DNA from: Streptomyces sparsogenes
GTDB taxonomy: Bacteria; Actinomycetota; Actinomycetes; Streptomycetales; Streptomycetaceae
Reading direction: 5' to 3'
DNA length: 64,000 bases
Assembly (NCBI RefSeq): GCF_001704635.1
Contig: NZ_MAXF01000096.1
Coordinates: 1 to 64,000, forward strand
This document shows positions 10,479-24,600 of this stretch, piece by piece. The stretch's first letter is position 1. The number at the start of each line of letters is the position of its first letter. The translations under genes were made by a program, and so were the position numbers. The notes beneath the pieces were generated by a model. That model saw nothing but the letters and a program-made list of their open reading frames with translations. It was not told the origin of the DNA and searched no databases.

Positions 10479-10946
10479 ATGGCCACCACCGCCCCCGACC
10501 CGCGACCGGACGCCGCGCGGGAGAGCATCAGCGCGACCGTGGCGTCCCTCCAGGCCGACCTCGCCCGCTCCGAGTCCAAGGCGAGCCTGTTACTGGCCCT
10601 GGCCGGGGCCGCGCTGGTGGCGCTGGGCTCCACCGCCCCGGGCCTCCACCCGCGCGTGCCGACCGCCGTGGCCGGCTCCCTCGGCGCCGCCGCGCTGCTG
10701 GTCGCGACCGTCCTCCTGCTGCTCGCGGTGCGCCCGAACCTCAGCGGCGACGGCTGGACGAGCTGGAGCCGGATGAGCCACGACCGGTTGCGCGAGCGGC
10801 TGGCCTCCGGCTACCAGGTGGAACACGTGAGGTTCATGGCCGAACTCGCCGTGCGGAAGTTCCGTCTCATCCGGATCGCGGTTGACTGCATGCTCGCCGG
10901 GCTCGGCCTACTGGCCCTCGCCGCCGTCCTCGCCGTCGCGGACTGA
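10479..10946 (+). CDS. Small membrane protein resembling Pycsar TM effectors (DUF5706-like)
   Basis: This 155-residue protein has an N-terminal amphipathic helix with LQADLARSESKASLLLALAG leading into a first membrane segment. A second segment spans about 62-84 (AGSLGAAALLVATVLLLLAV). A soluble part follows with MSHDRLRERLASGYQVEHVRFMAELAVRKF, and a third membrane segment ends the protein. The D/ESKASLLLAL helix plus two-TM/soluble/one-TM layout resembles DUF5706-like Pycsar effectors, which damage the membrane on sensing a cyclic pyrimidine nucleotide. No cyclase is adjacent, so the immune role is inference. Leu38 is a TTA codon (10590-10592). The 3' end overlaps the convergent reductase gene by 39 bp. 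Confidence 0.65.
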   Translation: MATTAPDPRPDAARESISATVASLQADLARSESKASLLLALAGAALVALGSTAPGLHPRVPTAVAGSLGAAALLVATVLLLLAVRPNLSGDGWTSWSRMSHDRLRERLASGYQVEHVRFMAELAVRKFRLIRIAVDCMLAGLGLLALAAVLAVAD

Positions 10947-11533: not shown

Positions 11534-12346
11534 ATGAACGAGATCCAGGAGATGGCCGCCCGCCTGGTGGAGGTGGACGGCGTGGTCGGGGTGATGCTCG
11601 GCGGCAGCCGGGCGCGGGACGAACACGCGCCGGACTCCGACTGGGACCTCGGCGTGTACTACCGGGGCCCGCTCGACGTGGCGGCACTGCGGGCGCTGGC
11701 CGCCGAGGTGACCGGCGGGCCGGTGGAGGTCGCGGGCCCGGGGGAATGGGGGCCGTGGGTGAACGGCGGGGCGTGGCTGGACGTGCGCGGGCAGGCGGTG
11801 GACTGGATCCTGCGGGACGCCGACCGGGTGCGCGCGGTGTGGCAGGACTGCCGCGCCGGGCGGCACGAGGTGGGCGTGCAGGCCGGGCACCCGCTGGGGT
11901 TCTGGTCGCCCTGCTACGCGGGCGAGGTGGCCCTGGGGCGGGTGCTGGCCGACCCCTCGGGGGAGTTGGGCACGCTGCGCGCCGAGGCCGGGACCTATCC
12001 CGAGCCGCTGCGGGAAGCGCTGACCGGGGCGGCGTGGGAGGCGGGTTTCCTGGTCTCGAACGCCGCCAAGTCGGCCCGGCGCGGCGATGTCCTGCACGTC
12101 TCGCTGAGCCTCTCCCGGGCCGTCGGCGTCCTCGTCCAGGCCCTCTTCGCCCACCACCGCCGCTGGTGCCTCAACGAGAAGGGCGCGCTGGCGGCGGTGG
12201 CCACGATGCCGGACACGCCCCCCGGGTTCGGCGACCGGGCCGGGGCGCTGCTGGGGGCGCTCGGCGGTGGCCCGCCCGAGCTGGTGGCCCGGGTGGCCCT
12301 GGCGGGCGGGCTGGTCGACGAGGTGCGGGCGGTGCTGGGCGGGTAG
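11534..12346 (+). CDS. Nucleotidyltransferase-domain protein
   Basis: This 270-residue protein opens with a minimal nucleotidyltransferase domain: GVVGVMLGGSRARDEHAPDS leads into SDWDLGVYY, where the G-S turn and paired aspartates bind metal and nucleotide. The C-terminal two thirds are helical (AAWEAGFLVSNAAKSARRGD, LSRAVGVLVQALFAHHRRWC) and resemble the partner domain of DUF4037-type or aminoglycoside-type transferases. The acceptor is unknown. The start is 23 bp from the divergent FMN reductase and lacks a strong ribosome site, so it may be leaderless. I do not see the features of a cyclic-dinucleotide synthase. Confidence 0.8.
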   Translation: MNEIQEMAARLVEVDGVVGVMLGGSRARDEHAPDSDWDLGVYYRGPLDVAALRALAAEVTGGPVEVAGPGEWGPWVNGGAWLDVRGQAVDWILRDADRVRAVWQDCRAGRHEVGVQAGHPLGFWSPCYAGEVALGRVLADPSGELGTLRAEAGTYPEPLREALTGAAWEAGFLVSNAAKSARRGDVLHVSLSLSRAVGVLVQALFAHHRRWCLNEKGALAAVATMPDTPPGFGDRAGALLGALGGGPPELVARVALAGGLVDEVRAVLGG

Positions 12347-12490
12347 CGGGACGTCGCACGCATGCTCCTGCGAGCCGCGGCGCGGCAGGCCGCCGCGAGT
12401 CGCCGGCTCGGGGCGCGGGCCGACTGCTTCCGGGGGCCCCAGGGGCCCAGCCCCCTGCCCCTCGCCTGTCTCATTTCCGATGCCTACTTC

Positions 12491-12521
12491 TTGTGTGGTG
12501 TTGATCACTGCGCGCTAGGCT
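12491..12521 (+). promoter_or_regulatory. Candidate promoter of the ABC-3C operon
   Basis: TTGTGT and TAGGCT, 19 bp apart, precede the first ABC-3C gene by about 25 bp, in a stretch visibly richer in A and T than the flanks. AAGGGGGG just before the ATG at 12546 is the likely ribosome site. The match to the vegetative consensus is partial. Confidence 0.35.
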
Positions 12522-12545
12522 CTCCGGCGAGACCAAGGGGGGTCG

Positions 12546-13484
12546 ATGCAGTTCGAGCAGCGTATGTACGCTCGCCTGAAGTTCCTGGGGCTGATGGCCG
12601 AGTTATATGAGACGGCGTTTGAGGACTTTTTCCACCGGTTGATGTGTGCGCGCTATCCGGACTTCCTCGACGTGCGCACCCATGGCAGGCTCGGTGACCA
12701 AGGGGCTGACGGCCTGGCGCTGCATGAGCGCAAGCTGTACGCCTGTTATGCGCCGCAGACGGTGGATGTCGTACAGGTCAAGCAAAAGCTGATGTCCGAC
12801 CTGGCCAAGGCGTTGGAGAAAAGATCCGGCCAATTCGACACGTTCGTATTCGTCCACAACGACCGGCGGGGTATGCATCCGCGGATCGCGACACTGCTGT
12901 CAGAGACGGACGCAGGGCATCCGGACGTGAAGTTCGAGCAGATGGGCACGCGCCGTCTGTGGTACGAGTGCATGCGCCTGGACCAGGAAGCTGCCGAGGA
13001 GGTGCTGGGCTGCCAGATTCCGATCCAGCCGGTCATTCACGGCGTGGGGATGGACGATCTGGCGCCCCTGCTGAAGCACCTGCGAGACCAGCGGGTCGCG
13101 GCGGACCCTTTGATGCCATTGCCTGATGTGGAGCCGGGCAAGCTCGACTTCAACCGGCTGCACGGCGATGCTCGGCAGGACCTGGTGCGGGGCATGCGCC
13201 ACAGCCACCTCGTGGACGCCTTCTACGAAGGAGGTATCCGTGCGGTGGAACACGACGAGGTGGCCCAGGGCTTCCGGCTGTATTACGAGCAGGTCCGACA
13301 GGAATGGACCGAGCCGGAAGATGTGCTGTGGCAGCTTGAGATGTACGTACTCGGCAACGGTAGCCAGCAGCCACGAGTGCAGCGGGCCGCCTGGGTGATA
13401 TTGGCGCACTTCTTCGAACGTTGTGACATCTTCGATGCGCCTCCGCCCGGATGGGCCGGCTCCGGCGTCGAGGTGTCGGCATGA
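12546..13484 (+). CDS. ABC-3C system effector-type protein (first component)
   Basis: This 312-residue protein heads a three-gene ABC-three-component operon. The N-terminal part (FEDFFHRLMCARYPDFLDVR, then GRLGDQGADGLALHERKLYACYAPQ) looks like a restriction-endonuclease-type core with spaced acidic residues before a beta strand, in the manner of Mrr-like folds. The C-terminal half (MDDLAPLLKHLRDQRV, DLVRGMRHSHLVDAFYEGG, YEQVRQEW) fits the ABC-3C C-terminal domain that connects effectors to the ATPase. I infer a nuclease-like toxin held in check by the other two subunits. Leu20 is a TTA codon (12603-12605). Base use is less GC-rich than the neighbours. Its stop overlaps the next start as ATGA. 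Confidence 0.7.
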   Translation: MQFEQRMYARLKFLGLMAELYETAFEDFFHRLMCARYPDFLDVRTHGRLGDQGADGLALHERKLYACYAPQTVDVVQVKQKLMSDLAKALEKRSGQFDTFVFVHNDRRGMHPRIATLLSETDAGHPDVKFEQMGTRRLWYECMRLDQEAAEEVLGCQIPIQPVIHGVGMDDLAPLLKHLRDQRVAADPLMPLPDVEPGKLDFNRLHGDARQDLVRGMRHSHLVDAFYEGGIRAVEHDEVAQGFRLYYEQVRQEWTEPEDVLWQLEMYVLGNGSQQPRVQRAAWVILAHFFERCDIFDAPPPGWAGSGVEVSA

Positions 13485-13747
13485 TCACGCCCACGAAGGG
13501 CATTGCACCGGACCGATGTCTGCTTGCCGTGGGAGCGCAGGTGCTGCTTCAGCTCGACGAGCCGCGCTCGGTCAGTCAGGCGTGGGCCCGGCTGAAGGCG
13601 TGGCGGTCCGAGCACGGGCATTACGCGCCGGTATCGTTCGCCTGGTTCGTGTTGGCCCTTGATGTGCTGTACAGCATGGGCGCGGTGGAACTGCGCCGTG
13701 ATGTTCTCGTAGCGAGGAGTGCCGATGCTGCAGCGCTTGAGCGCTGA
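13481..13747 (+). CDS. ABC-3C system middle component
   Basis: This 88-residue protein has the layout of ABC-3C middle components: IAPDRCLLAVGAQVLLQLDE, a helix with SVSQAWARLKAWR, then VSFAWFVLALDVLYSMGAVE and a final strand LVARS. This winged-helix-like adaptor family sits between effector and ATPase. The ATG overlaps the upstream stop by 4 bp. The 3' end overlaps the ATPase start by 23 bp, which indicates tight translational coupling of the three subunits. Confidence 0.75.
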   Translation: MITPTKGIAPDRCLLAVGAQVLLQLDEPRSVSQAWARLKAWRSEHGHYAPVSFAWFVLALDVLYSMGAVELRRDVLVARSADAAALER

Positions 13748-15476
13748 TTACCCGGGCTTCAAGACCGCAACCTTCACTCCCGGGATGAACCTGGTGGTGG
13801 CGGACACCACGGCGGGCTCAGCGGATACCGACAGCCGCAACAGCGCCGGCAAATCCAGCCTGATCGAGCTGATCCATTTCATGCTCGGTTCTCGGGTCGA
13901 CAAGCGCTCACTGATCACAAAGAAAGCCTTACGGAACTTCACTTTCTCCCTGCTGATGAGCTGGCCCCGCGTCGATGAACTGCAAGTCAGACGTAGTGGC
14001 CTTCGCCCCGGGGTGGTCGACATCACGCCGGACATCACCGCCCCCGACGAGCCGGGGACGCTCGAGCTCCACCTCGGCGGATCCAGGGAGCTGAGCGCCG
14101 AGCGATGGACCCGGCTGATCGAGCGCGACCTGTTCGGTCTGCGTGAAGAACATCCGGGCGTCAGCGGGCGGACGATGCTTTCATTCCTGGCCCGTCGGGT
14201 GTCTGCACACGGTTTCAATGAAGCCACCCGCACCTTTTCCCGTCAGGCCGAAGCGGATGCCACCACCAACCTCGCCTACATGCTGGGGCTCGACTGGCAG
14301 CTCGCCGACGGGTATCGGCGGCTCGCAGCCCGCAAGGCCACCCGTACACAATTACGCAAAGCCATCAACGACCCGGTGTGGGGGCGTATCGTCGGCTCCC
14401 CCGCTGATTTGCGCGGGCAGATCACGCTTGCCCAGGCCCAGGTCGAGCGACTGCAGGCCCAGATCGCGGACTTTCAAGTGGTGCCCGAATACGAACGCGT
14501 CAAGGCAGAGGCGGACGGCCTTGCCCGTCGCATCAAGCAGCTCGCCCAGGACGACGTGATCGACCAGAGCAACCTGGAGGAACTGCGCCAGGCCGTCACC
14601 GAGGCCGCTGACGTCGAGGTCGACTATCTGGAACCCGTCTACCAAGAGCTTGGAGTCGTCCTCAACGACCAGGTCCGCCGCCGGTTCGAGGAGGTGCAAA
14701 CCTTCCACCAGTCCGTGGTGCGCAACCGCCGACGTTTTCTCGAGGCGGAGATCGCCGACCTCACCGCTCGTCTGGAAGCGCGGCGCACCGAGCGCGCCCG
14801 ACTCGGGGAGGAACAATCCCGGCTGTTGCGCGTTCTCAACGACGGTGGCGCGCTGGAGGCGCTGACCGCGCTGCAGCAGGCTCTGGCCCGTGAACAGGCC
14901 GCACTGGAGGCGCTGCGACACCGCTACGAAGCCGCCCAGGCCCTCGAAGCCAGTGCCCGACAGATCACCGCCCAGCGCCTGCAACTACAGGAGGCTGTCA
15001 CGACCGACCTGGACGAGCGCGCCGAGCAGACCACCGAGGCGACTCTGCTGTTCTCCCAGTACGCCCAGCGTCTGTACGGCGAAGGCCGCGAGGCGTATCT
15101 CGCGATCGAAGCCGGACCCAGCAGCCTGCAGATCAGACCTCACATCCACAGCGATGACAGCCGTGGCATCGGCAACATGGTCATTTTCTGCTTCGACCTC
15201 ACCATCGCAGTCCTCGCCCATCGTCATGGCCGTGGCCCGGACTTCCTCATCCATGACAGTCATCTCTTCGACGGAGTCGACGACCGGCAACTCGCGGCCG
15301 CACTCACCCTGGCCGCCGACGTGGCCCGTGATGAGGGCATGCAGTACATTGCCACCCTCAATAGCGATGACCTGGACAAAGCGATTCGCCGCAGCTTCGA
15401 CCCCACGCCGTACCTGCGTGAACCACGACTGACCGACGCGCTCGACAGCGGTGGTCTGTTCGGCTTCCGCTTCTGA
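13725..15476 (+). CDS. ABC-3C system ATPase, DUF2326 family (SMC/Rad50-like)
   Basis: This 583-residue protein is an SMC-like ABC ATPase. The N-terminal lobe has FTPGMNLVVAD and a Walker A loop RNSAGKSS at about residues 38-45, the form typical of DUF2326 proteins. Residues 210-460 form a long coiled coil. The C-terminal lobe has a signature-like DDSRGIGNMVIFCFDL and a Walker B strand DFLIHDS. The ATG at 13725 follows GAGGAG and gives the expected N-terminus; the GTG at 13719 is less likely. Leu69 and Leu210 are TTA codons (13929-13931, 14352-14354). It would sense a trigger by nucleotide-driven closure and release the first-component effector. The role is inferred from the family. Confidence 0.82.
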   Translation: MLQRLSADYPGFKTATFTPGMNLVVADTTAGSADTDSRNSAGKSSLIELIHFMLGSRVDKRSLITKKALRNFTFSLLMSWPRVDELQVRRSGLRPGVVDITPDITAPDEPGTLELHLGGSRELSAERWTRLIERDLFGLREEHPGVSGRTMLSFLARRVSAHGFNEATRTFSRQAEADATTNLAYMLGLDWQLADGYRRLAARKATRTQLRKAINDPVWGRIVGSPADLRGQITLAQAQVERLQAQIADFQVVPEYERVKAEADGLARRIKQLAQDDVIDQSNLEELRQAVTEAADVEVDYLEPVYQELGVVLNDQVRRRFEEVQTFHQSVVRNRRRFLEAEIADLTARLEARRTERARLGEEQSRLLRVLNDGGALEALTALQQALAREQAALEALRHRYEAAQALEASARQITAQRLQLQEAVTTDLDERAEQTTEATLLFSQYAQRLYGEGREAYLAIEAGPSSLQIRPHIHSDDSRGIGNMVIFCFDLTIAVLAHRHGRGPDFLIHDSHLFDGVDDRQLAAALTLAADVARDEGMQYIATLNSDDLDKAIRRSFDPTPYLREPRLTDALDSGGLFGFRF

Positions 15477-15596: not shown

Positions 15597-16190
15597 TCAG
15601 AAGAGATCCGGGATGTCGTCCAGGCGGCTCAGGAAGCGGCCCGGCCAGGAGTACAGCGCGCCGCCGAACGAGAGGTTGCGGGTGTAGACCCCCTCCATCA
15701 GGATCGCCAGCCCGATGTCCAGCCCGTCGAAGCCGCCCTGCGCGGCACCCGTGATGGTGCGCGGGTGCCGCCACGTCGAGCGGGACATCGTGACGACGGC
15801 CCCCTCGCGCCACAGTTCGTGGCGGAGTTTGTCGCCGAGCACCCGGTAGCGGTAGGAGCGTCCGGCGAGGGCGATCCGCAGCGCACGGCGGTGCGCCGTC
15901 ACCGCCAGGTGGCGGCGCTTCAGATCCGCGGTCCAGCCGTCGGCGGTCAGCGTCATCCAGGCGAGGCGGGGGCGGTCGCGGAAGTCGATGCCGGAGAAGG
16001 ACATGGGGGGAATGCCCTGCCCCGACACCCAGGAGACGAGAGTGTCCCGGACGAGGTCCTCCTCCGCCGGACACGTCAGCTCGACCGGCCCGAAGCCGGG
16101 CACCGTCCCGGCCCAGGTGTGGCGGGGCCTCTTCAGGAGACGGCCGGGGGTCGAGCCCTGGTGGACGAGTTCGAAGTGGATGGTGTTCAC
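15597..16190 (-). CDS. Hypothetical protein, 197 aa
   Basis: I do not recognise this protein. It is soluble, without a signal peptide, rich in basic and aromatic residues, and mostly predicted beta structure (MNTIHFELVHQGSTPGRLL, AWMTLTADGWTADLKRRHLA, GRSYRYRVLGDKLRHELW, YTRNLSFGGALYSWPGRF). GNAT-like and DUF folds were considered without a convincing motif. It lies between the ABC-3C operon and the STAND gene on the opposite strand. Codon use is normal for the organism, so it is probably a real gene of unknown function. Confidence 0.6.
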   Translation of the reverse strand: MNTIHFELVHQGSTPGRLLKRPRHTWAGTVPGFGPVELTCPAEEDLVRDTLVSWVSGQGIPPMSFSGIDFRDRPRLAWMTLTADGWTADLKRRHLAVTAHRRALRIALAGRSYRYRVLGDKLRHELWREGAVVTMSRSTWRHPRTITGAAQGGFDGLDIGLAILMEGVYTRNLSFGGALYSWPGRFLSRLDDIPDLF

Positions 16191-16577
16191 GCGGTGTTCC
16201 CCCTTGCCGGATGTCCTGGTGAGGCTACCTTCCGGTGACTTCGTCCGGTCCGCCGCTCATGGTGACGGAGCGATGCCGGCCACGGCTGATCCGCAAGGGC
16301 AGGAGACAGCGCGCCGCGTGAGATGACCGCGCGCTCAGCCCGCTCAGCCCCCCGCACGGTCCAGCAGCCAGCCCACCAGAGCGCGTACGGCGCCGGAGAC
16401 CGCGGCGGCGGCGAGGGCGAGGAGCGGGCGGGGGGCGGGGCGGTTCGCGGGAGGCACGGTGGCGGGTCCTTTCGGTGCGGCCGGTCGGTTTGCCGGGTAC
16501 GTTCACCCTGCGCGGGGCGCCGGGTGTTGCGGCAGGTGTCACGCGTTGCCTGTTGCCGCAACGGGGGAGGGGCGCGC
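16191..16577. other. Intergenic region before the STAND gene
   Basis: This gap of 387 bp holds one short possible gene on the minus strand (listed separately) and probably the STAND promoter. TTGCGGCAGG and TTGCCTGTTGCCGCAA near its right end form a GTTGCGGCA/TGCCGCAAC-type inverted pair (about 16524-16563). I see no tRNA, IS or strong terminator. Confidence 0.4.
16344..16457 (-). CDS. Possible 37-residue hydrophobic peptide
   Basis: A GTG with AAAGGA about 10 nt upstream opens a 37-codon frame. The product has a Pro/Arg-rich start, then one hydrophobic helix (LLALAAAAVSGAVRALVGWL) and the end LDRAGG. The high third-position GC fits a coding frame and the helix could lie in or on the membrane. 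It diverges from the STAND gene by 120 bp. Function unknown; chance cannot be excluded. Confidence 0.4.
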   Translation of the reverse strand: MPPANRPAPRPLLALAAAAVSGAVRALVGWLLDRAGG

Positions 16578-19500
16578 GTGGACGACGACGAGGAACTGAG
16601 CGGGGAGCTGGTGCCGCGGACCGGCGACGGCGGGCGGGTCGGGGACCTCAAGCCGATACCCGACCGCGTGCCCCCGGCGTGCGCCGAGCTGGCGGCCGGG
16701 CTGCGGGGGCTGTTCGGGGCGGTCGGGGTGTCCTTGCGGGTGTTCGCGCTGCGGGTGCACTGCGACCCGGGCACCGTCTCCCGCTATCTCAGCGGAACGG
16801 GGGTCGCCCCGGCCGAGTTCGTGGACACGCTGCTGACCCACGCCGCCAAGGCCACCGGACGGCCGTCCTCCCCCGAGGTCGTCGCCCATGTGCACGGCCT
16901 GCAACGGCGGGCGTTGCAGGCCACCAACAGGACCCGCTGGGAGCTGCAGAACCTGCGTGACCAGCTCGCCGACGCCGACCGCAGGCGCCAGCAGGCCGAG
17001 GTGCGGGCGGAGGCGCTGACCGAGGCGTTGCAGGCGCGGAAACAGCGGATCGCCGAGATGGAGGTCGAGCAGCGGCAGCTCGCCGTGGCGATGTCGGTCG
17101 AGCGCGACGGACGCGGCACCGAGGTGGAGCTGCTGCGGGACGAGCGGGAGCGGTTACGCGGTGAGCGCGACCGGCTGAAGGAGGAAGTCGTCCGGCTCCA
17201 GAGCGAGCTGGACCAGGCGCGGCGGCAGGCGCTGGAGGCCGAGCGGCGCTGCGAGGAGCTGGAACACCAGCTCCAGGCCGGGGAGGAGGCGGCGGCCGAA
17301 CAGGCCGAGGCCGAGGACCCGGTGGCGCACCGGCTCTGGCTCGCGGAGGAACAGGCCGGCGCCGCGGAGGACCGGGCCCGGCGGCTGGAGCGGGAGCTGG
17401 CGCGGTTGCGGGCGGAGGAGGGCGGGCGGGGCGCGCCTGCCCCCTCCTCAGGGGGCAGGTTGATCGCGGGGGCGCGTCTGCACCCGCCGTCGCCCCCGAG
17501 CCCGTCCGGCCGGCTGCCCGGCGGCCTGCCCGCCCGTCTGCCCGTCACCGTGACGTACGCCGGCCCCCACCGCCCCTGGGCGACCTGGGTCGCCCGGCGC
17601 CTGGAGGCCGCGGGCGTCGTGCGCGAGGCGATCACCCTCCGGCGCTGGGACCCCACGGACGAGCCGTCCCTGGACCGCGCCCTGGCCGAGCTGCTCGGCC
17701 CCGACGCCTTCCATCTGCTGCTGCTCAGCGAGCACTTCTTCGCCCTCGGGCCGCACCGTACGGAGGCGGACTGGGAGGCGGTCCTCGGGAGCCCCCACAT
17801 ACGCCGAAGCACGGACCGAGTCGCGGCCTTCAACGTCAGCGGCCGCCCGATGCCGTTCCTCGCCGCCCTGCTGGACGCCGTCGAACTGTGGGGGGTCGAG
17901 GAGGAGGAGTGCGAGCGGCGGCTGCTGCGCGCGCTCGGCGTGGCCCCCGCCACCGTCGGCGGCCCCCGGCAGCGGTCCGGGCTGCCCGGGAACCCGCCCG
18001 AGCTGTGGGACGGGGTGCCGCGCCGCAACCCCCGTTTCACCGGCCGGGATGTCCTCCTGGAGCGGATCAACGACTTCCTGCGGAACGCCCCCGCCGAGGC
18101 CGCCGTCTGCGCCCTGGTGGGCCTGCCGGGCATCGGCAAGACCCAGCTCGCCGCCGAGTACGCCTACCGTTTCGCCGCCGAGTACGACGTGGTGTGGTGG
18201 GCCGAGGCGCATGGGCGTGGGGTGCTGGAGTCGCGGCTCGCCGGGCATCTGGCCCACCTCGGCAAGGACGTCCAGGGGTACACCCGGCGGGCCCGGGCCG
18301 AGGCCGCCCTGGACAATCTGCGCCGGGGCGTGCCGTCCGACCGCTGGCTCCTCGTCCTCGACGGGGCCGACTACCCGGCCGCCGTGGCCGATCTGCTGCC
18401 GGGCGGGCGCGGCCATGTGCTGATCACCTCGGAGATCCGCGACTGGGCCGACCACTACGTCGAGGTGCTGGACGTCCCGCCCTTCAGCCGGCGGGAAAGT
18501 GTGGCGTTCGTACGGGCCCGCGCCCCCCGGCTCAGCGGCGAGGAGGCCGACGCCCTCGCCGCCGCCGTGGGAGACCTGCCGCTGCCGCTCGACCAGACGG
18601 CGGGCTGGCTGGACGGCTCGACGATGCCGGCCGAGGAGTACATCCGCAGGCTGCGCGAGGGCGAGCCGGTGCCCGTGAAGTCCGGAGCGGCGTACGGGGA
18701 GCCCTATCCCACGGTGTTCAAGGAATTGATCCGGCGGTTGCAGACCCACTCGCAACTGGCCGTGGACCTGTTGCAGCTCTGCGCGGTGTTCGGGCCCGGC
18801 CCGGTCCCGCTCGCGCTGCTGCGGGCCGTTCCGGCGGAGCTGGTCTCCCCGGCGGTGGCGGCCCTGCTGGAGGACCCCACCCACTTCGAGGTGACGGTCG
18901 GGAAGCTGGTGCAGCACTCCGTGGTGCGGCGGGAGGGGGAGACGCTGCACCTGCACCGCTTCGTGCGCGACGCGGTCCGCAGAAGGACCCCCGAGGACCG
19001 TCGCGAGAAGGACGCCCAGGTCGTCTGGCGGGCCCTCGTCGCGGCGCGTCCGGGATGGCCCCAGGAACCGGCCACCTGGCCGCGCTACGCCGAACTCATG
19101 CCGTATCTCGACGTGTTGTGGGCGCTGGAGCGCCCGGAGCCCCGGGAGGGGACGCGTCCGCTGCGGCGCGACTGTGTGACGTACCTGACGCTGAGCGGCG
19201 ATTACGCGACGGCCCTGCCCCTCGTCGACAAGGCCATGGACGTCACGGACTGGCAGCTGACCCTGTGCTGCACCGGCCTGCTGCGGGCGACCGGGGACTA
19301 CGCCCGGGCCGAGCGGCTGGACCGGGCGCTCATGCGGCAGTTGAGCCATCCCAGCGCGCTCGCTGCGATGAACGCGCTCTCCGCCGACCTGCGGGGCCTG
19401 GGGCGCTACGCCGAGGCGTACGAGCTCTGCCGGCGCCAGGTCGACCTCCGCCCGGTGCTCGACCACCGTAAGGAACTTCAGGGCCAAGCCGAAGTGGCCG

Positions 19501-20417
19501 CCTCGCTGCGGGCGATCGGCGAATACGGACAAGCGCTGGAGCTGGACGAGAAGGTCCTGGGGAGCCGGAGGGAGCAGTTGGGGAGCGACCATCTCGAGAC
19601 GCTGGCCTCCGAGACCGACCACGCCTGGGACCTGCTGCTGATGGGCCGCTATCGGGCGGCCCTGGCCGTCCAGTCCCGCAGCGTCGAGCGGCACCGCGCC
19701 GCCGTGGGGAGCGAGGCCCCGCCCACGCTGGCGGCCGAGTGTGCCCTGGCGATGTGCCGGCTTCACTGCGGGGAGGTGGAGACCGGGACCTCCCAGCTCG
19801 CCATGGTGCTGGACCGCGCGCGGCGGCTGGTGGGCGAGGCTGCGCCGCTGTCCCTGCTGATCGCCTCCCACTACTCGTGCGGGCTGAGGCGGATGGGCCG
19901 CCTCGAAGAGGCGGGGGCGCTCGGGGACTTCGTCACGGACGCCTACCGGGTGACCGTGGGAGAGCAGCACCCGTATGCCGTCGGGGCGGCGGTGAACAGC
20001 GCGCTCGTGCTGCTGGAGCGGGGTGAGGACGAGCCGGCGTGGGAGGTGCTGGAGAAGGCGCTGACCGATATGACGGCGGCGCTCGGCGAGGGCCACCCCT
20101 GGACGCTGGGGGTCGCCGTCAACACCGCCGCCGCCTACCAGACCATGGGCTACCGGACGGACGCCTGTGCCCTGAGCCGGGAGGTCGCGCTGCGGTCCGA
20201 GACCGCGCTGGGCAGGCGGCACCCGCTGACCCTGACGGCTCGGCTCGCGCTCGCCGCGGACCTGCGGGAGATCAAGGGCGGACGGGACGAGGCATCGGCG
20301 ATCGAGCAGGGAGCCATCGGCGACCTGGAGGACATCCTGGGGCTGAGGCACCCCGCCGTGGTGGCGGCACAGCAACACGGCCGCCCTGTGTGGGACTTCG
20401 TGCCGCTGCCCATCTGA
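16578..20417 (+). CDS. HTH / coiled-coil / TIR / NB-ARC / TPR STAND protein
   Basis: This 1279-residue multidomain protein starts at the GTG at 16578 behind GGGGGAGG. An XRE-like helix-turn-helix (about 30-75; VSLRVFALRVHCDPGTVSRY) is followed by a long coiled coil (105-290). A TIR-like domain (323-460) begins VTVTYAGPHRPWATWVARRL and includes LRRWDPTDEPSLDRAL. An NB-ARC NTPase follows (490-780): P-loop GLPGIGKTQ near 515, Walker B WLLVLDGAD near 590, DLPLPLDQTAGWL. TPR helices (870-1270) form the sensor. The layout resembles FxsT-type and Avs-like STAND proteins, which oligomerise on ligand binding; the TIR could act as an NADase or as an adaptor. Leu193 is TTA (17154-17156). No FxSxx peptide genes are nearby. 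Confidence 0.85.
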   Translation: MDDDEELSGELVPRTGDGGRVGDLKPIPDRVPPACAELAAGLRGLFGAVGVSLRVFALRVHCDPGTVSRYLSGTGVAPAEFVDTLLTHAAKATGRPSSPEVVAHVHGLQRRALQATNRTRWELQNLRDQLADADRRRQQAEVRAEALTEALQARKQRIAEMEVEQRQLAVAMSVERDGRGTEVELLRDERERLRGERDRLKEEVVRLQSELDQARRQALEAERRCEELEHQLQAGEEAAAEQAEAEDPVAHRLWLAEEQAGAAEDRARRLERELARLRAEEGGRGAPAPSSGGRLIAGARLHPPSPPSPSGRLPGGLPARLPVTVTYAGPHRPWATWVARRLEAAGVVREAITLRRWDPTDEPSLDRALAELLGPDAFHLLLLSEHFFALGPHRTEADWEAVLGSPHIRRSTDRVAAFNVSGRPMPFLAALLDAVELWGVEEEECERRLLRALGVAPATVGGPRQRSGLPGNPPELWDGVPRRNPRFTGRDVLLERINDFLRNAPAEAAVCALVGLPGIGKTQLAAEYAYRFAAEYDVVWWAEAHGRGVLESRLAGHLAHLGKDVQGYTRRARAEAALDNLRRGVPSDRWLLVLDGADYPAAVADLLPGGRGHVLITSEIRDWADHYVEVLDVPPFSRRESVAFVRARAPRLSGEEADALAAAVGDLPLPLDQTAGWLDGSTMPAEEYIRRLREGEPVPVKSGAAYGEPYPTVFKELIRRLQTHSQLAVDLLQLCAVFGPGPVPLALLRAVPAELVSPAVAALLEDPTHFEVTVGKLVQHSVVRREGETLHLHRFVRDAVRRRTPEDRREKDAQVVWRALVAARPGWPQEPATWPRYAELMPYLDVLWALERPEPREGTRPLRRDCVTYLTLSGDYATALPLVDKAMDVTDWQLTLCCTGLLRATGDYARAERLDRALMRQLSHPSALAAMNALSADLRGLGRYAEAYELCRRQVDLRPVLDHRKELQGQAEVAASLRAIGEYGQALELDEKVLGSRREQLGSDHLETLASETDHAWDLLLMGRYRAALAVQSRSVERHRAAVGSEAPPTLAAECALAMCRLHCGEVETGTSQLAMVLDRARRLVGEAAPLSLLIASHYSCGLRRMGRLEEAGALGDFVTDAYRVTVGEQHPYAVGAAVNSALVLLERGEDEPAWEVLEKALTDMTAALGEGHPWTLGVAVNTAAAYQTMGYRTDACALSREVALRSETALGRRHPLTLTARLALAADLREIKGGRDEASAIEQGAIGDLEDILGLRHPAVVAAQQHGRPVWDFVPLPI

Positions 20418-20493: not shown

Positions 20494-23400
20494 TCAGATC
20501 TCGAAGACCTCGCTGACCAGCGCCTGCTGCTCCACCTGGTGCCGCTTGTTCGACCCCACCGCCGGGGACGAGGAGTGCGGCCGGGAGACCCGGACGAGCC
20601 GCTCGGAGGCCGGCAGGTCGGCGCCCACCGAGAGCTCCAGGTGGTCGATCAGGTTCAGCGCGATGAACGGCCACGCACCCTGGTTCGCCGGCTCCTCCTG
20701 CGCCCAGACGTACTTCTGGACGCCGGAGTACTTGGCGATCTCGGCCTGCAGCTCCGCGCCCGGCAGCGGGTAGAGCCGCTCCACCCGGATGAGGGCGGTG
20801 TCCGTCGCGCCGCGCTTGTCCCGCTCGGCGGCCAGGTCGTAGTAGACCTTGCCGGAGCAGAAGACGACCTTGCGGACCGCGGCCGGGTCGACCTTCTCGT
20901 CGCCGATGACCGGGCGGAAGGAGCCGGTGGTGAACTCCTCCGTCTTGGAGGCCGCCGCCTTCAGACGCAGCATCGACTTCGGGGTGAAGACGACCAGCGG
21001 CTTGTGGTGCGGGTTGTGGACCTGCCAGCGCAGCAGGTGGAAGTAGTTCGACGGCAGCGTCGGCATGGCGACCGTCATGTTGTTCTGCGCGCACAGCTGG
21101 AGGAAGCGCTCGATGCGGGCCGAGGAGTGGTCCGGGCCCTGGCCCTCGTAGCCGTGCGGCAGCAGCAGGGTGACGCCGGAGGTCTGGCCCCACTTCTGCT
21201 CGGCCGAGGAGATGAACTCGTCGACGATCGTCTGCGCGCCGTTGACGAAGTCACCGAACTGCGCCTCCCACATGACCAGCGCGTCCGGGCGGGCCAGCGA
21301 GTAGCCGTACTCGAAGCCCATCGCCGCGTACTCGCTGAGCAGCGAGTCGTAGACGTTGTAGCGGGCCTGCTCGTCGGAGAGGTAGAGCAGCGGGGTGTAG
21401 TCCTCGCCGGTCTCCCGGTCCACCAGCACCGCGTGGCGCTGGCCGAAGGTGCCTCGGCGGGAGTCCTGGCCGGCCAGGCGGACGGGGGTGCCCTCCATCA
21501 GCAGCGAGCCGATGGCGAGGGTCTCGCCCATGCCCCAGTCGATCGTGTCGTCCTCGATCATCGCCGCGCGCCGCTGGAGCTGCGGGAGCAGCCGCGGGTG
21601 GACGGTGATCCGGTCGGGGATGTTGACCTGGGACTCGGCGACCCGCTTGATGACCTCCTGGTTGACGGCCGTGGAGACCGCCACCGGGAACTCCGGCTGG
21701 GGCTCGGGCAGCTCGGTCGGGGCCGGGTGCGAGGTGGCGTCGCGGACCTCGGTGAAGACCTTCTCCAGCTGGCCCTGGAAGTCCTGCAGCGCCTGCTCGG
21801 CCTCTTCCAGGGTGATGTCGCCGCGACCGATGAGCGACTCGGTGTAGAGCTTGCGCACCGAGCGCTTCTTGTCGATCAGGTCGTACATCAGCGGCTGGGT
21901 GAAGCCGGGGTTGTCGGTCTCGTTGTGACCGCGGCGGCGGTAGCAGATGAGGTCGATGACCACGTCCTTGTTGAACGCCTGGCGGAACTCGAAGGCGAGC
22001 CGCGCGACGCGCACCACGGCCTCCGGGTCGTCGCCGTTGACGTGGAAGATCGGCGCCTCGATCATGCGCGCCACATCGGTGGCGTACATGGAGGAGCGGG
22101 ACGCGGCCGGGGCGGCGGTGAAGCCGACCTGGTTGTTGATGACGATGTGCACGGTGCCGCCGGTGCGGTAGCCGCGCAGCTGCGACATGTTGAGGGTCTC
22201 GGCGACCACGCCCTGGCCCGCGAAGGCGGCGTCGCCGTGCAGGGCGACGGGCAGGACGGTGAAGTCGGTGCCGGCCTTGCCGATGATGTCCTGCTTGGCG
22301 CGGACGACGCCCTCCAGGACCGGGTCCACCGCCTCCAGGTGGGAGGGGTTGGCGGTCAGCGAGACCTTGATCTGCTCGCCGTCCAGGCCGGTGAAGGTGC
22401 CCTCGGCGCCCAGGTGGTACTTCACGTCGCCGGATCCGTGCATCGACTTCGGGTCGAGGTTGCCCTCGAACTCGCGGAAGATCTGCGCGTACGACTTGCC
22501 GACGATGTTCGCCAGGACGTTGAGGCGGCCGCGGTGGGCCATGCCGATGACGACCTCGTCCAGGCGCGACTCGGCGGCCGCGTCCAGCACCGCGTCCAGC
22601 AGCGGGATGACGGACTCGCCGCCCTCCAGCGAGAAGCGCTTCTGGCCGACGTACTTCGTCTGCAGGAAGGTCTCGAACGCCTCGGCCGCGTTGAGCCGGC
22701 GCAGGATCCGCAGCTGCTCGTCGCGCTCCGGCTTGGAGTGCGGACGCTCCACGCGGTCCTGGATCCACTTGCGCTGCTTCGGGTCCTGGATGTGCATGAA
22801 CTCGATGCCGGTGGTGCGGCAGTACGAGTCGCGCAGCACGCCCAGGATGTCGCGCAGGTTCATCATCGTCTTGCCGGCGAAGCCGCCGACCGCGAACTCG
22901 CGCTCCAGGTCCCACAGGGTGAGGCCGTGCTCGACGATGTCCAGGTCGGGGTGCTTGCGCTGGCGGTACTCCAGCGGGTCGGTGTCGGCCATGACATGGC
23001 CGCGGACCCGGTAGGAGTGGATCAGGTCGAAGACGCGCGCGGCCTTGGTGACGTCGTCGTCGTGCGAGACGTCGATGTCGCGCAGCCAGCGGACCGGCTC
23101 GTAGGGGATCCGCAGCGCCTTGAAGATCTCGTCGTAGAAGTCGTTCTCGCCGAGCAGCAGCTGGCTCATGATCCGCAGGAACTCGCCGGAGGCGGCGCCC
23201 TGGATCACCCGGTGGTCATAGGTGCTGGTCAGCGTCATGATCTTGGAGATGCCCAGCTTGTTCAGGGTGTCCTGGGACGTGCCCTGGAACTCGGCCGGGT
23301 ACTCCATGGCGCCGACGCCGATGATCAGGCCCTGCCCGGGCATCAGGCGCGGCACGGAGTGCACGGTGCCGATGCCGCCCGGGTTGGTCAGCGAGGCCGT

Positions 23401-24324
23401 GACGCCGGTGAAGTCCTCCATCGTCAGCTTGTTCGCGCGGGCGCGGCGGACGATGTCCTCGTACGCCTGCCAGAACTCGAAGAAGTTGAGCGTCTCGGCC
23501 TTCTTGATCGCCGCGACGACGAGCTGGCGGTCGCCGTTGGGCTTGACCAGGTCGATGGCGAGGCCGAGGTTGACGTGCTCCGGCTTGACCAGGGTCGGCT
23601 TGCCGTCCTTCTCGGTGAACGAGTGGTTCATCGAGGGCATCGCCTTCAGCGCCTGCACCATGGCGTAGCCGATCAGGTGCGTGAAGGACACCTTGCCGCC
23701 GCGGGCGCGCTTGAGGTGGTTGTTGATGACGATGCGGTTGTCGAACAGCAGCTTGACCGGGACGGCGCGCACGGAGGTGGCCGTCGGCAGCTCGAGGCTG
23801 GCGTTCATGTTCTTCGCGACGGCGGCGGCCGGGCCGCGCAGCGTGACGTACTCCGGGCCGGCGGCCGGAGCGGCCGGCTCGGCGGCCTTGGCGGGCGCGG
23901 CCTTGGCCGGAGCCGCGGCGGCCGGAGCCTGGGCGGCGGGCTTGGCCTCGGCCGCGGGCTTCGCCGCGGCCGGGGCGGCCTGCGGCGCGGCCTGGGCGGC
24001 GGGCTTCGCGGGCGCCGGGGCCGGCGCTGAGCCGTTGCTCACCGCCGTCGGCCGGTCGGCGCCGGGACCGGCCGCCCCCGCGGCGGACGGGCCCGGCGGA
24101 GCCGCGGCGGACTCGGCCACCGCGGAGCCGGTGTCCTGGCCCGGCTTGTAGTCGGCGAAGAAGTCCCACCAGGCTCGGTCGACCGAGTTCGGGTCCTGGA
24201 GGTACTGCTGGTAGATCTCGTCGACGAGCCACTCGTTGGGACCGAACGCGGCGGCAGGGTTACTCCCCTGCCCGTCCTGCTGGTCGGTCGAGACGCTCGA
24301 ACTGTTGGGGGACTGTGGCGACAC
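20494..24324 (-). CDS. kgd: Multifunctional 2-oxoglutarate dehydrogenase E1/E2 - decarboxylase
   Basis: This is a TCA-cycle enzyme of the actinobacterial fused type. From the GTG at 24324 ([10 protein letters not shown]) it is 1276 residues. The N-terminal [19 protein letters not shown] motif and an Ala/Pro-rich linker lead into an E2-type succinyltransferase domain ([17 protein letters not shown]; catalytic [13 protein letters not shown]). The thiamine-diphosphate E1 domain follows, with [16 protein letters not shown] and [17 protein letters not shown] transketolase-like C-terminus has [20 protein letters not shown]. It lacks a lipoyl domain, as usual, and works with separate E2 and E3 subunits. 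In related species GarA/OdhI-type FHA proteins regulate it. An upstream ATG (24411) would add 29 unlikely residues. Confidence 0.95.
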
Positions 24325-24600
24325 GGCGGCAACCGCCCTCTTCCGCTTCCTAAGGTGGTGGACAGCGGGAATAAAGGCTACGCCTCTTGGCCCCTTACGT
24401 GCAGGCCGCACTGGTCATCGTCGCGCAAGTCACATTGATCGGCTGGTTTCGCCGCTTCGAGTGGCGGGAATCACCGCATGTTCTGCCCGGGTACGGGAAC
24501 GCGAAAACGCGCCCACACCCCCTGGGGATGTGCGCGTCCCGGGCCCTCATCCGCTCGGATGTGCGCGACCCTCGACGTCTGTGCGCCGTTGGCGACGACT

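Follow-up and report, generated by a model that had tools for sequence, protein, structure and literature searches.

A STAND protein of Streptomyces sparsogenes with an N-terminal helix-turn-helix-coiled-coil region, a candidate operator and a divergent micropeptide gene

This analysis concerns a STAND gene on contig NZ_MAXF01000096.1 of Streptomyces sparsogenes (assembly GCF_001704635.1), of which positions 1 to 64,000 of the forward strand (64,000 nt) are called the window throughout. The encoded protein joins a helix-turn-helix (HTH) domain and a coiled coil to the TIR, NB-ARC and TPR modules known from FxsT, and probably represents an autoregulated transcriptional switch which is paired with a membrane micropeptide encoded on the opposite strand, the two genes belonging to a wider type of two-gene module. 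It seems that the TIR-STAND body has been put to a new use as a transcriptional switch, with its presumed toxic domain in decay, and the unannotated micropeptide together with a precise candidate operator give this proposal a directly testable output.

The fused protein, the micropeptide and the candidate operator

The features of the locus are collected in Table 1. The frame of the STAND gene stays open upstream as far as position 16323, but the start at 16578 is favoured because of a purine-rich stretch resembling a ribosome-binding site and of start codons at the equivalent place in relatives. The combination of five modules on one polypeptide, as proposed in a first-pass annotation, is borne out by the open frame, hidden Markov models, motifs and AlphaFold2 models of the N-terminal parts, which were built from the window protein and from relatives. 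The HTH is not matched by Pfam in the window protein itself, while the ortholog at locus L067 exceeds the cut-off of HTH_31 (31.1 bits vs 27). The model of residues 25-262 shows the HTH followed by long helices (mean predicted local distance difference test score, pLDDT, 90.5), and Foldseek relates it to the XRE regulator ClgR with a probability of 1.00, although with an E value of just 0.09; the table of a further structural comparison was taken up by unrelated long helices. The coiled coil is modelled as helices of about residues 118-177 and 180-246 and is homologous along its full length to DnaA-type and other HTH-coiled-coil proteins, its length being nearer to 130-140 residues than to the 180 originally assumed. 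The NB-ARC domain scores below the Pfam cut-off (17.6 vs 23.5) but retains the STAND NTPase motifs GLPGIGKTQ (P-loop, residue 515) and LLVLDGAD (Walker B, residue 591), TPR_12 is matched with 67 bits, and a caspase domain was not found in the Pfam scan of the protein.

Table 1. Features of the STAND locus in window coordinates
Feature	Position	Strand	Description
STAND protein (HTH-coiled coil-TIR-NB-ARC-TPR), FxsT-derived	16578..20417	+	1279 aa, GTG start, terminal stop
XRE/lambda-repressor-like HTH	16650..16907	+	residues ~25-110, DPGTVSRYLSG at residue 63; HTH_31 in ortholog, AlphaFold2, Foldseek
Coiled coil	16908..17315	+	residues ~111-246, conserved AExRCxxLE at residue 221; model helices, homology
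TIR domain	17532..17954	+	residues ~319-459, Asp398 at catalytic Glu position; TIR_2, AlphaFold2, structural match
NB-ARC ATPase core	18021..18737	+	P-loop and Walker B motifs
TPR array, putative sensor	19158..20414	+	C-terminal; TPR_12, TPR_10
Putative operator	16526..16562	+	GTTGCG-N13-GTTGC-N8-GCAAC, GTTGCGGCAGGTGTCACGCGTTGCCTGTTGCCGCAAC; between the divergent genes; holds dyad GTTGCGGCA / TGCCGCAAC
Micropeptide gene	16344..16457	-	37 aa, SGAVRALVGWLL; divergent, single hydrophobic helix, GTG start, AAAGGA upstream
kgd (2-oxoglutarate decarboxylase/dehydrogenase)	20494..24411	-	PRK12270, 2111 bits; downstream landmark outside the module

A search with residues 1-479 in 150 Streptomyces genomes, scoring 10 candidates per genome and thus open to misses, showed that the TIR domain belongs mostly to HTH-less proteins of about 1000 residues and the HTH-coiled coil to many other proteins, the two occurring together in the window genome and at least three more among the matches listed. 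A scan of GTDB genomes added S. milbemycinicus, S. samsunensis, S. himastatinicus, S. niphimycinicus, S. endocoffeicus, S. sabulosicollis, S. iranensis, S. antioxidans and S. violaceusniger, which we take to form one group, the S. violaceusniger group, as well as S. flavochromogenes and S. longisporoflavus. The comparison set consists of 17 distinct fusion loci (the window, L045, L047, the twelve loci L065-L076, L077 and L140), duplicate records of the same places (L016, L017, L024, L046, L137, L139, L141) having been dropped. Among 246 genomes of the phylum, a sample which is small for the genus, a profile (A3) matched three at 1e-8, all from the genus of the window. For comparison, 12 canonical fxsT loci, coding for TIR-NB-ARC-TPR proteins of about 1000 residues without HTH, were taken from the better TIR matches and not at random.

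The micropeptide gene starts 121 nt from the start of the STAND gene; it is unannotated and was overlooked in the first-pass annotation, and its translation, MPPANRPAPRPLLALAAAAVSGAVRALVGWLLDRAGG, contains the motif SGAVRAxVxWLL. Homologues of 33-45 residues are encoded divergently at the equivalent place in all 16 fusion loci with upstream sequence, including the window (the record of L066 begins inside the STAND gene and was left out), even beside STAND parts as little as 37-39% identical to that of the window, and a profile scan found them in none of the 12 canonical fxsT loci. Eight columns, GAV and WLL among them, are invariant in 15 aligned micropeptides, and the pooled ratio of non-synonymous to synonymous polymorphism (pN/pS) over six pairs, 0.44, also speaks for the gene. 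A profile of four of them (window, L045, L073, L076) recovers the other twelve and gives no match at the loci of other HTH-coiled-coil classes in the scanned set. In 295 Streptomyces genomes, with 25 candidates scored per genome and misses being possible, nine strong matches (E <1e-11) were obtained, all at this type of site and eight of them with a fused gene. Weaker matches (E 2.7e-6 or worse) were taken as chance; of four such loci examined, three gave weak micropeptide matches and one gave none, and an HTH-coiled-coil match was absent from all four. Neither Pfam nor NCBIfam contains a family matching the micropeptide above cut-off, the best being DUF4235 (17.9 bits vs 27). An open reading frame for 197 residues beyond it (15597-16190, minus strand) has no Pfam or NCBIfam match at 0.001.

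The intergenic element of the window is described by the three-part pattern GTTGCG-N12/13-GTTGC-N8/9-GCAAC. Its tandem, GTTGC-N14-GTTGC, occupies the space between the two genes at 15 of the 16 fusion loci, the exception being the broken locus L074, and is expected 0.05 times per 64 kb under a Markov model of the window. The full pattern matches the genome of S. sparsogenes solely at the window element, and the 295 Streptomyces genomes nine times (in eight genomes), as compared to three matches of a reversed control pattern. All nine are located 67-124 nt upstream of an HTH-coiled-coil gene and on its strand; two of them (L162 and L166) are new, and the pattern had been derived in part from the other seven. 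Furthermore, among 512 pentamer pairs GTTGC/GCAAC shows the strongest enrichment in the 200 nt preceding 39 HTH-coiled-coil genes of other classes (78 occurrences vs 12.1 expected), these genes being related within their classes and the tandem of L146 and L153 already known. The tandem with a spacing of 18-19 bp is present in 8/8 DnaA-class, 5/5 L085-class and 1/2 nuclease-class loci, and eight receiver-class records from six distinct places contain clustered GTTGC and GCAAC motifs 350-520 nt upstream. The occurrence of a specific element ahead of HTH-coiled-coil genes with different architectures supports, as judged from the sequences, the earlier guess that the HTH and coiled coil serve autoregulation. 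The dyad alone (TTGCGGC-N10/34-GCCGCAA) was discarded as a description of the element, missing the distant relatives and having another match in the genome. An RNA stem may form at the dyad; its arms show no covariation, and no leader RNA was matched by Rfam between 15400 and 20500 at gathering cut-offs.

The TIR domain and the kinship with FxsT

The TIR fold of the fused protein, which had been named as a point to be checked by fold prediction, is present: Pfam TIR_2 matches residues 323-449 with 33.7 bits (cut-off 28), and the closest structural matches of the AlphaFold2 model (pLDDT 83.6) are the TIR domains of TcpB/BtpA (Z 9.2) and PdTIR (Z 9.0), with receiver domains interspersed among the TIRs in the plain Foldseek list. 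A profile alignment to PdTIR and TcpB places the glutamate of these proteins, which we take to be the catalytic residue, directly before the conserved tryptophan; an earlier assignment four residues past the tryptophan was dropped on this ground. At this position, by sequence alignment only, the window protein carries Asp398, as opposed to the catalytic Glu that had been looked for. Of 13 canonical FxsT TIRs, 11 show Glu and 2 show Asp. Among the fusion loci, Glu is retained in L047, L076 and L065, a close relative of the window, while Asp occurs in the window and L066, Ser in L077 and Gly in L045. Three of the 17 loci (L067, L068, L074) have a shortened or degraded domain with Asp, and seven (L069-L073, L075, L140) have none, their coiled coil running directly toward NB-ARC. 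Five of the latter (L069, L070, L072, L073, L140) retain HTH, coiled coil, P-loop and TPR; the other two are damaged, L071 also lacking NB-ARC and L075 being frameshifted in the HTH.

The ratios of non-synonymous to synonymous substitution rates (dN/dS) differ between the modules. Among the window, L065 and L066 they amount to 0.16-0.21 for the coiled coil, 0.16-0.30 for the HTH, 0.35-0.38 for NB-ARC and 0.52-1.03 for TIR; between the window and L067-L072, NB-ARC reaches 0.50-0.74 and TIR, where present, 1.03-1.07. HTH and coiled coil are the best-conserved parts in most pairs. The only PADLOC match of the window protein is JetC on the coiled coil (E 0.096), no Avs or other defence STAND model being matched. 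Taken together, the TIR domain appears to be decaying, and dispensable in relatives, and the phage defence by depletion of nicotinamide adenine dinucleotide (NAD) suggested in the first-pass annotation is not supported, given Asp398, the marginal PADLOC result and the absence of TIR from seven of 17 loci.

The anticipated relation to FxsT holds, as indicated by the match of residues 480-1279 to the equivalog NF040586 (FxSxx_TPR; 627.7 bits vs a cut-off of 300) and by a common chromosomal site. The kgd gene directly adjoins the fused gene in 12 of 15 loci with downstream sequence (not in L047, L076 and L077) and fxsT in 9 of the 12 canonical loci; it lies a few genes off in L056 and L057 and was not seen at L059. 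In a tree of 30 NB-ARC-TPR sequences, 12 fusions form a single clade (support 100), whereas L047 and L076 are nested among the canonical FxsT sequences with L052 as their neighbour (support 91), suggesting that the joining occurred at least twice or that the halves recombined; both groups possess the peptide and the GTTGC element. The FxSxx-type VMAP ternary systems described by Kaur et al. (2020; PMC7159879) contain a TIR-AP-ATPase-TPR protein, to which canonical fxsT corresponds.

Strict linkage to FxSxx peptide clusters, named beforehand in the first-pass annotation as an observation that would speak against its reading, is not observed. As judged from tblastn, on which all statements on neighbouring genes rest, each of the 12 canonical loci has genes for a peptide hydroxylase, FxsB or both, together with SAV_2336-vWA and MoxR genes; in the window, no FxSxx-type modification genes (FxsB, aKG-HExxH), SAV_2336-vWA or MoxR genes were detected. 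Such genes are near one of 14 fusion loci tested, with L066 and L069 offering little flank; this is L045, where the fused gene is flanked by kgd on one side and on the other by a canonical fxsT accompanied by FxsB, vWA and MoxR genes. FxsB stays below the cut-off in 13 of 15 fusion-bearing genomes including that of the window (best 28 bits vs 370), which is a weak test, as it is likewise missing from 5 of the 12 genomes that have canonical loci, and aKG-HExxH genes occur elsewhere in 14 of the 15. The label FxSxx_TPR therefore extends to proteins outside FxSxx peptide clusters. The genome of S. sparsogenes contains two further NF040586 matches above cut-off, one of which, on contig C39 (L012, 4092-8753, minus strand; 868 bits), has its NB-ARC-TPR part fused behind a vWA-like N-terminus; it adjoins MoxR-like and aKG-HExxH genes and resembles the directly fused type of PMC7159879.

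The wider family and the weighing of explanations

HTH-coiled-coil regions also occur with C-termini called by Pfam as Response_reg, DnaA ATPase plus DnaA_C, or HATPase_c, with weak likenesses to the Eco29kI nuclease (15 bits vs 30.8) and Trypsin_2 (15 bits vs 27.6), and with C-termini read as helical repeats; L032 and L034 are read as receiver-type. Beside these genes stand small membrane proteins, which differ in each class. They are encoded divergently in 8/8 DnaA, 5/5 L085-class, 2/2 nuclease, 2/2 trypsin-like and 6/7 helical-repeat loci (weakly in L150); at 8 of the 13 receiver loci, counted as distinct places, they lie upstream in the same orientation. These counts were obtained with small profiles, which replaced an all-against-all comparison of upstream frames affected by base-composition noise and which contain some of the loci they find: the window, L045, L073 and L076 for the STAND class, L078, L081, L083 and L158 for the DnaA and trypsin classes, L085 and L088 for the L085 class, L151, L155 and L156 for the helical repeats, both nuclease loci, and L149, L154 and L159. 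Among the individual loci, L064 and L078-L084 code for DnaA-like proteins with an N-terminal HTH-coiled coil and possess the GTTGC tandem as well as a divergently encoded small membrane protein, Bac_DnaA and Bac_DnaA_C being found in the three proteins scanned. The HTH-coiled-coil protein of L146 (5119-6621, minus strand) carries a C-terminus weakly like Eco29kI, below cut-off, and L147 (6402-7919, plus strand) was assigned to the nuclease class by likeness; both have the divergent small membrane protein.

Since in several classes the HTH-coiled coil is accompanied by an element of its own, irrespective of the C-terminus, it is taken as the DNA-binding output of a self-regulated family, with the neighbouring membrane protein taken as the common target or partner. 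It may tentatively be proposed from these sequences that there is an undescribed Streptomyces family in which a small membrane protein accompanies an HTH-coiled-coil protein binding its own GTTGC operator, the C-termini being swapped among switches and effectors (TIR-NB-ARC-TPR, bare NB-ARC-TPR, DnaA-like ATPase, Eco29kI-like nuclease, trypsin-like, helical repeats, histidine-kinase-type ATPase, receiver), although the case for a single family falls a little short of even. Such a pairing was not met in the literature searched, which excluded preprints and the majority of subscription articles. Should the wider family be confirmed, many Streptomyces HTH proteins, including DnaA-like and nuclease-like ones, would share one control logic.

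For the window, the proposed course of events would begin with an HTH-coiled-coil cassette, travelling with its own operator and divergent micropeptide gene, which became fused with the TIR-NB-ARC-TPR half of an FxsT protein. From knowledge of related families we infer that a dimer formed via the coiled coil would occupy the operator between both genes and repress at rest, and that the binding of a ligand to the TPRs and a switch of NB-ARC powered by ATP would alter DNA binding, thereby releasing or activating the micropeptide, whose basic single helix would act at the membrane in growth arrest or signalling. The input of this member would be the FxsT-type NB-ARC-TPR switch, and the TIR would be an inheritance from FxsT which is no longer an essential output. 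The least certain step is the role of the micropeptide, which may be a regulated effector or a membrane anchor or sensor.

Several observations weigh against this autoregulated switch. The exact tandem is found in none of 13 receiver-class, 7 helical-repeat, 2 trypsin-class and 2 further HTH-coiled-coil loci. The micropeptide is short, and its pN/pS of 0.44 rests on 55 changes. The TPR array shows a dN/dS of 0.68-0.81 among the window, L065 and L066, which may reflect a fast-evolving sensor or relaxed constraint, and in comparisons of the window with L067-L072 constraint is also weaker on the HTH (0.28-0.54) and the coiled coil (0.32-0.55). Three of the 17 STAND genes are damaged (L071 without NB-ARC, L074 broken and without the element, L075 frameshifted in the HTH), suggesting that the module decays in some strains of the group. 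In genome G096 (L138, 4790-6320), the micropeptide reading frame survives beside kgd without a STAND gene, the latter and the intergenic operator region having been replaced by other DNA, read as a transposon gene.

The last two points bear as well on a toxin-antitoxin-like pair, in which the micropeptide would be a membrane toxin and the STAND protein its repressor or antitoxin. A small, basic and hydrophobic peptide, an element between the genes and their tight pairing would suit it, but L071, L074 and L075 keep peptide reading frames beside damaged STAND genes, as does G096 after STAND loss, though there the operator region went as well, so this explanation seems improbable. More serious, if still unlikely, is the notion that the micropeptide is a membrane anchor or sensor which keeps the HTH-coiled-coil protein at the membrane and releases it on a signal toward true targets elsewhere, for which the different small membrane proteins beside the other classes speak, as does the parallel with the membrane component of EACC1 that is proposed as a sensor in PMC7159879; it is opposed by the position of the element between the two genes and by the single occurrence of the three-part pattern in the genome, which shows no wider regulon with this pattern.

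The protein might also be a TIR-STAND receptor of abortive infection, in which the TPRs sense phage or stress, NB-ARC oligomerises and TIR cleaves NAD, while the HTH merely tunes expression. The TIR fold, the TIR_2 score above cut-off, the retained P-loop and the Glu at the catalytic position in L065 and most canonical FxsT TIRs fit this idea, to which little credence can be given in view of Asp398, the TIRs lost in seven and degraded in three of the 17 loci, a TIR dN/dS of up to 1.03 in close relatives and a PADLOC result confined to a marginal match on the coiled coil. It is highly improbable that the fused protein still belongs to an FxSxx peptide system and acts in trans: the NF040586 equivalog score and genome G036, where the fused gene adjoins a canonical fxsT with FxsB, vWA and MoxR genes, point that way, but no such genes were found near 13 of 14 loci, two of which (L066, L069) offer little flank, and FxsB is below cut-off in 13 of the 15 fusion genomes, 14 of which do contain aKG-HExxH genes elsewhere.

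Neighbourhood and comparison with known systems

Some way upstream of the STAND locus in window numbering, a protein of 155 residues (10479-10946, plus strand) contains the PycTM domain of Pycsar effectors (58 bits vs 27.2), no cyclase being present among ten neighbours scanned around it. The defence-like stretch 11534-15476 (plus strand), just upstream of the STAND locus, consists of a Nucleotidyltransferase/DUF4037 gene followed by two ABC-three-component CTD10 genes, the second of which also contains DUF2326.

The window module shares with FxsT (NF040586) the TIR-NB-ARC-TPR body, the score above cut-off and the chromosomal site beside kgd, and differs by its HTH-coiled-coil N-terminus, the divergent micropeptide, the operator-like element, the absence of peptide-processing, vWA and MoxR genes and the fading TIR domain. 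STAND regulators of the MalT/AfsR type combine a DNA-binding domain, NB-ARC and TPR in one chain, as the window protein does; unlike them, it has an HTH of the XRE type, which is separated from NB-ARC by a long coiled coil and a TIR, and its apparent sole target is its own divergent promoter region. Avs and TIR-STAND defence proteins possess a STAND ATPase, an N-terminal TIR and C-terminal repeats, as does the window protein, which, in contrast, has no PADLOC match of that kind and no catalytic Glu, and whose relatives lose the TIR. The XRE-type regulators of type II toxin-antitoxin pairs are characterized by an element at their own promoter region and a small partner gene, both of which recur here along with the XRE HTH, whereas the window regulator is a large STAND protein with a divergent membrane micropeptide and, in its family, interchangeable C-termini.

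The nearest described plan appears to be that of the EACC1 two-gene system, as presented in PMC7159879, where a caspase is the constant part of the partner and the membrane component is proposed as a sensor. Both are actinobacterial gene pairs in which a small membrane protein with one helix stands beside a partner whose constant part is combined with many different C-termini; a Pfam search with the 15 micropeptides gave no EACC1 match at E<=1, the queries being very short. In the present case, an HTH-coiled coil takes the place of the caspase, and the genes are mostly divergent. If the wider family is real, it would represent an EACC1-like immune or stress system of the 'constant plus variable' type, whose constant output is the transcription of a membrane protein.

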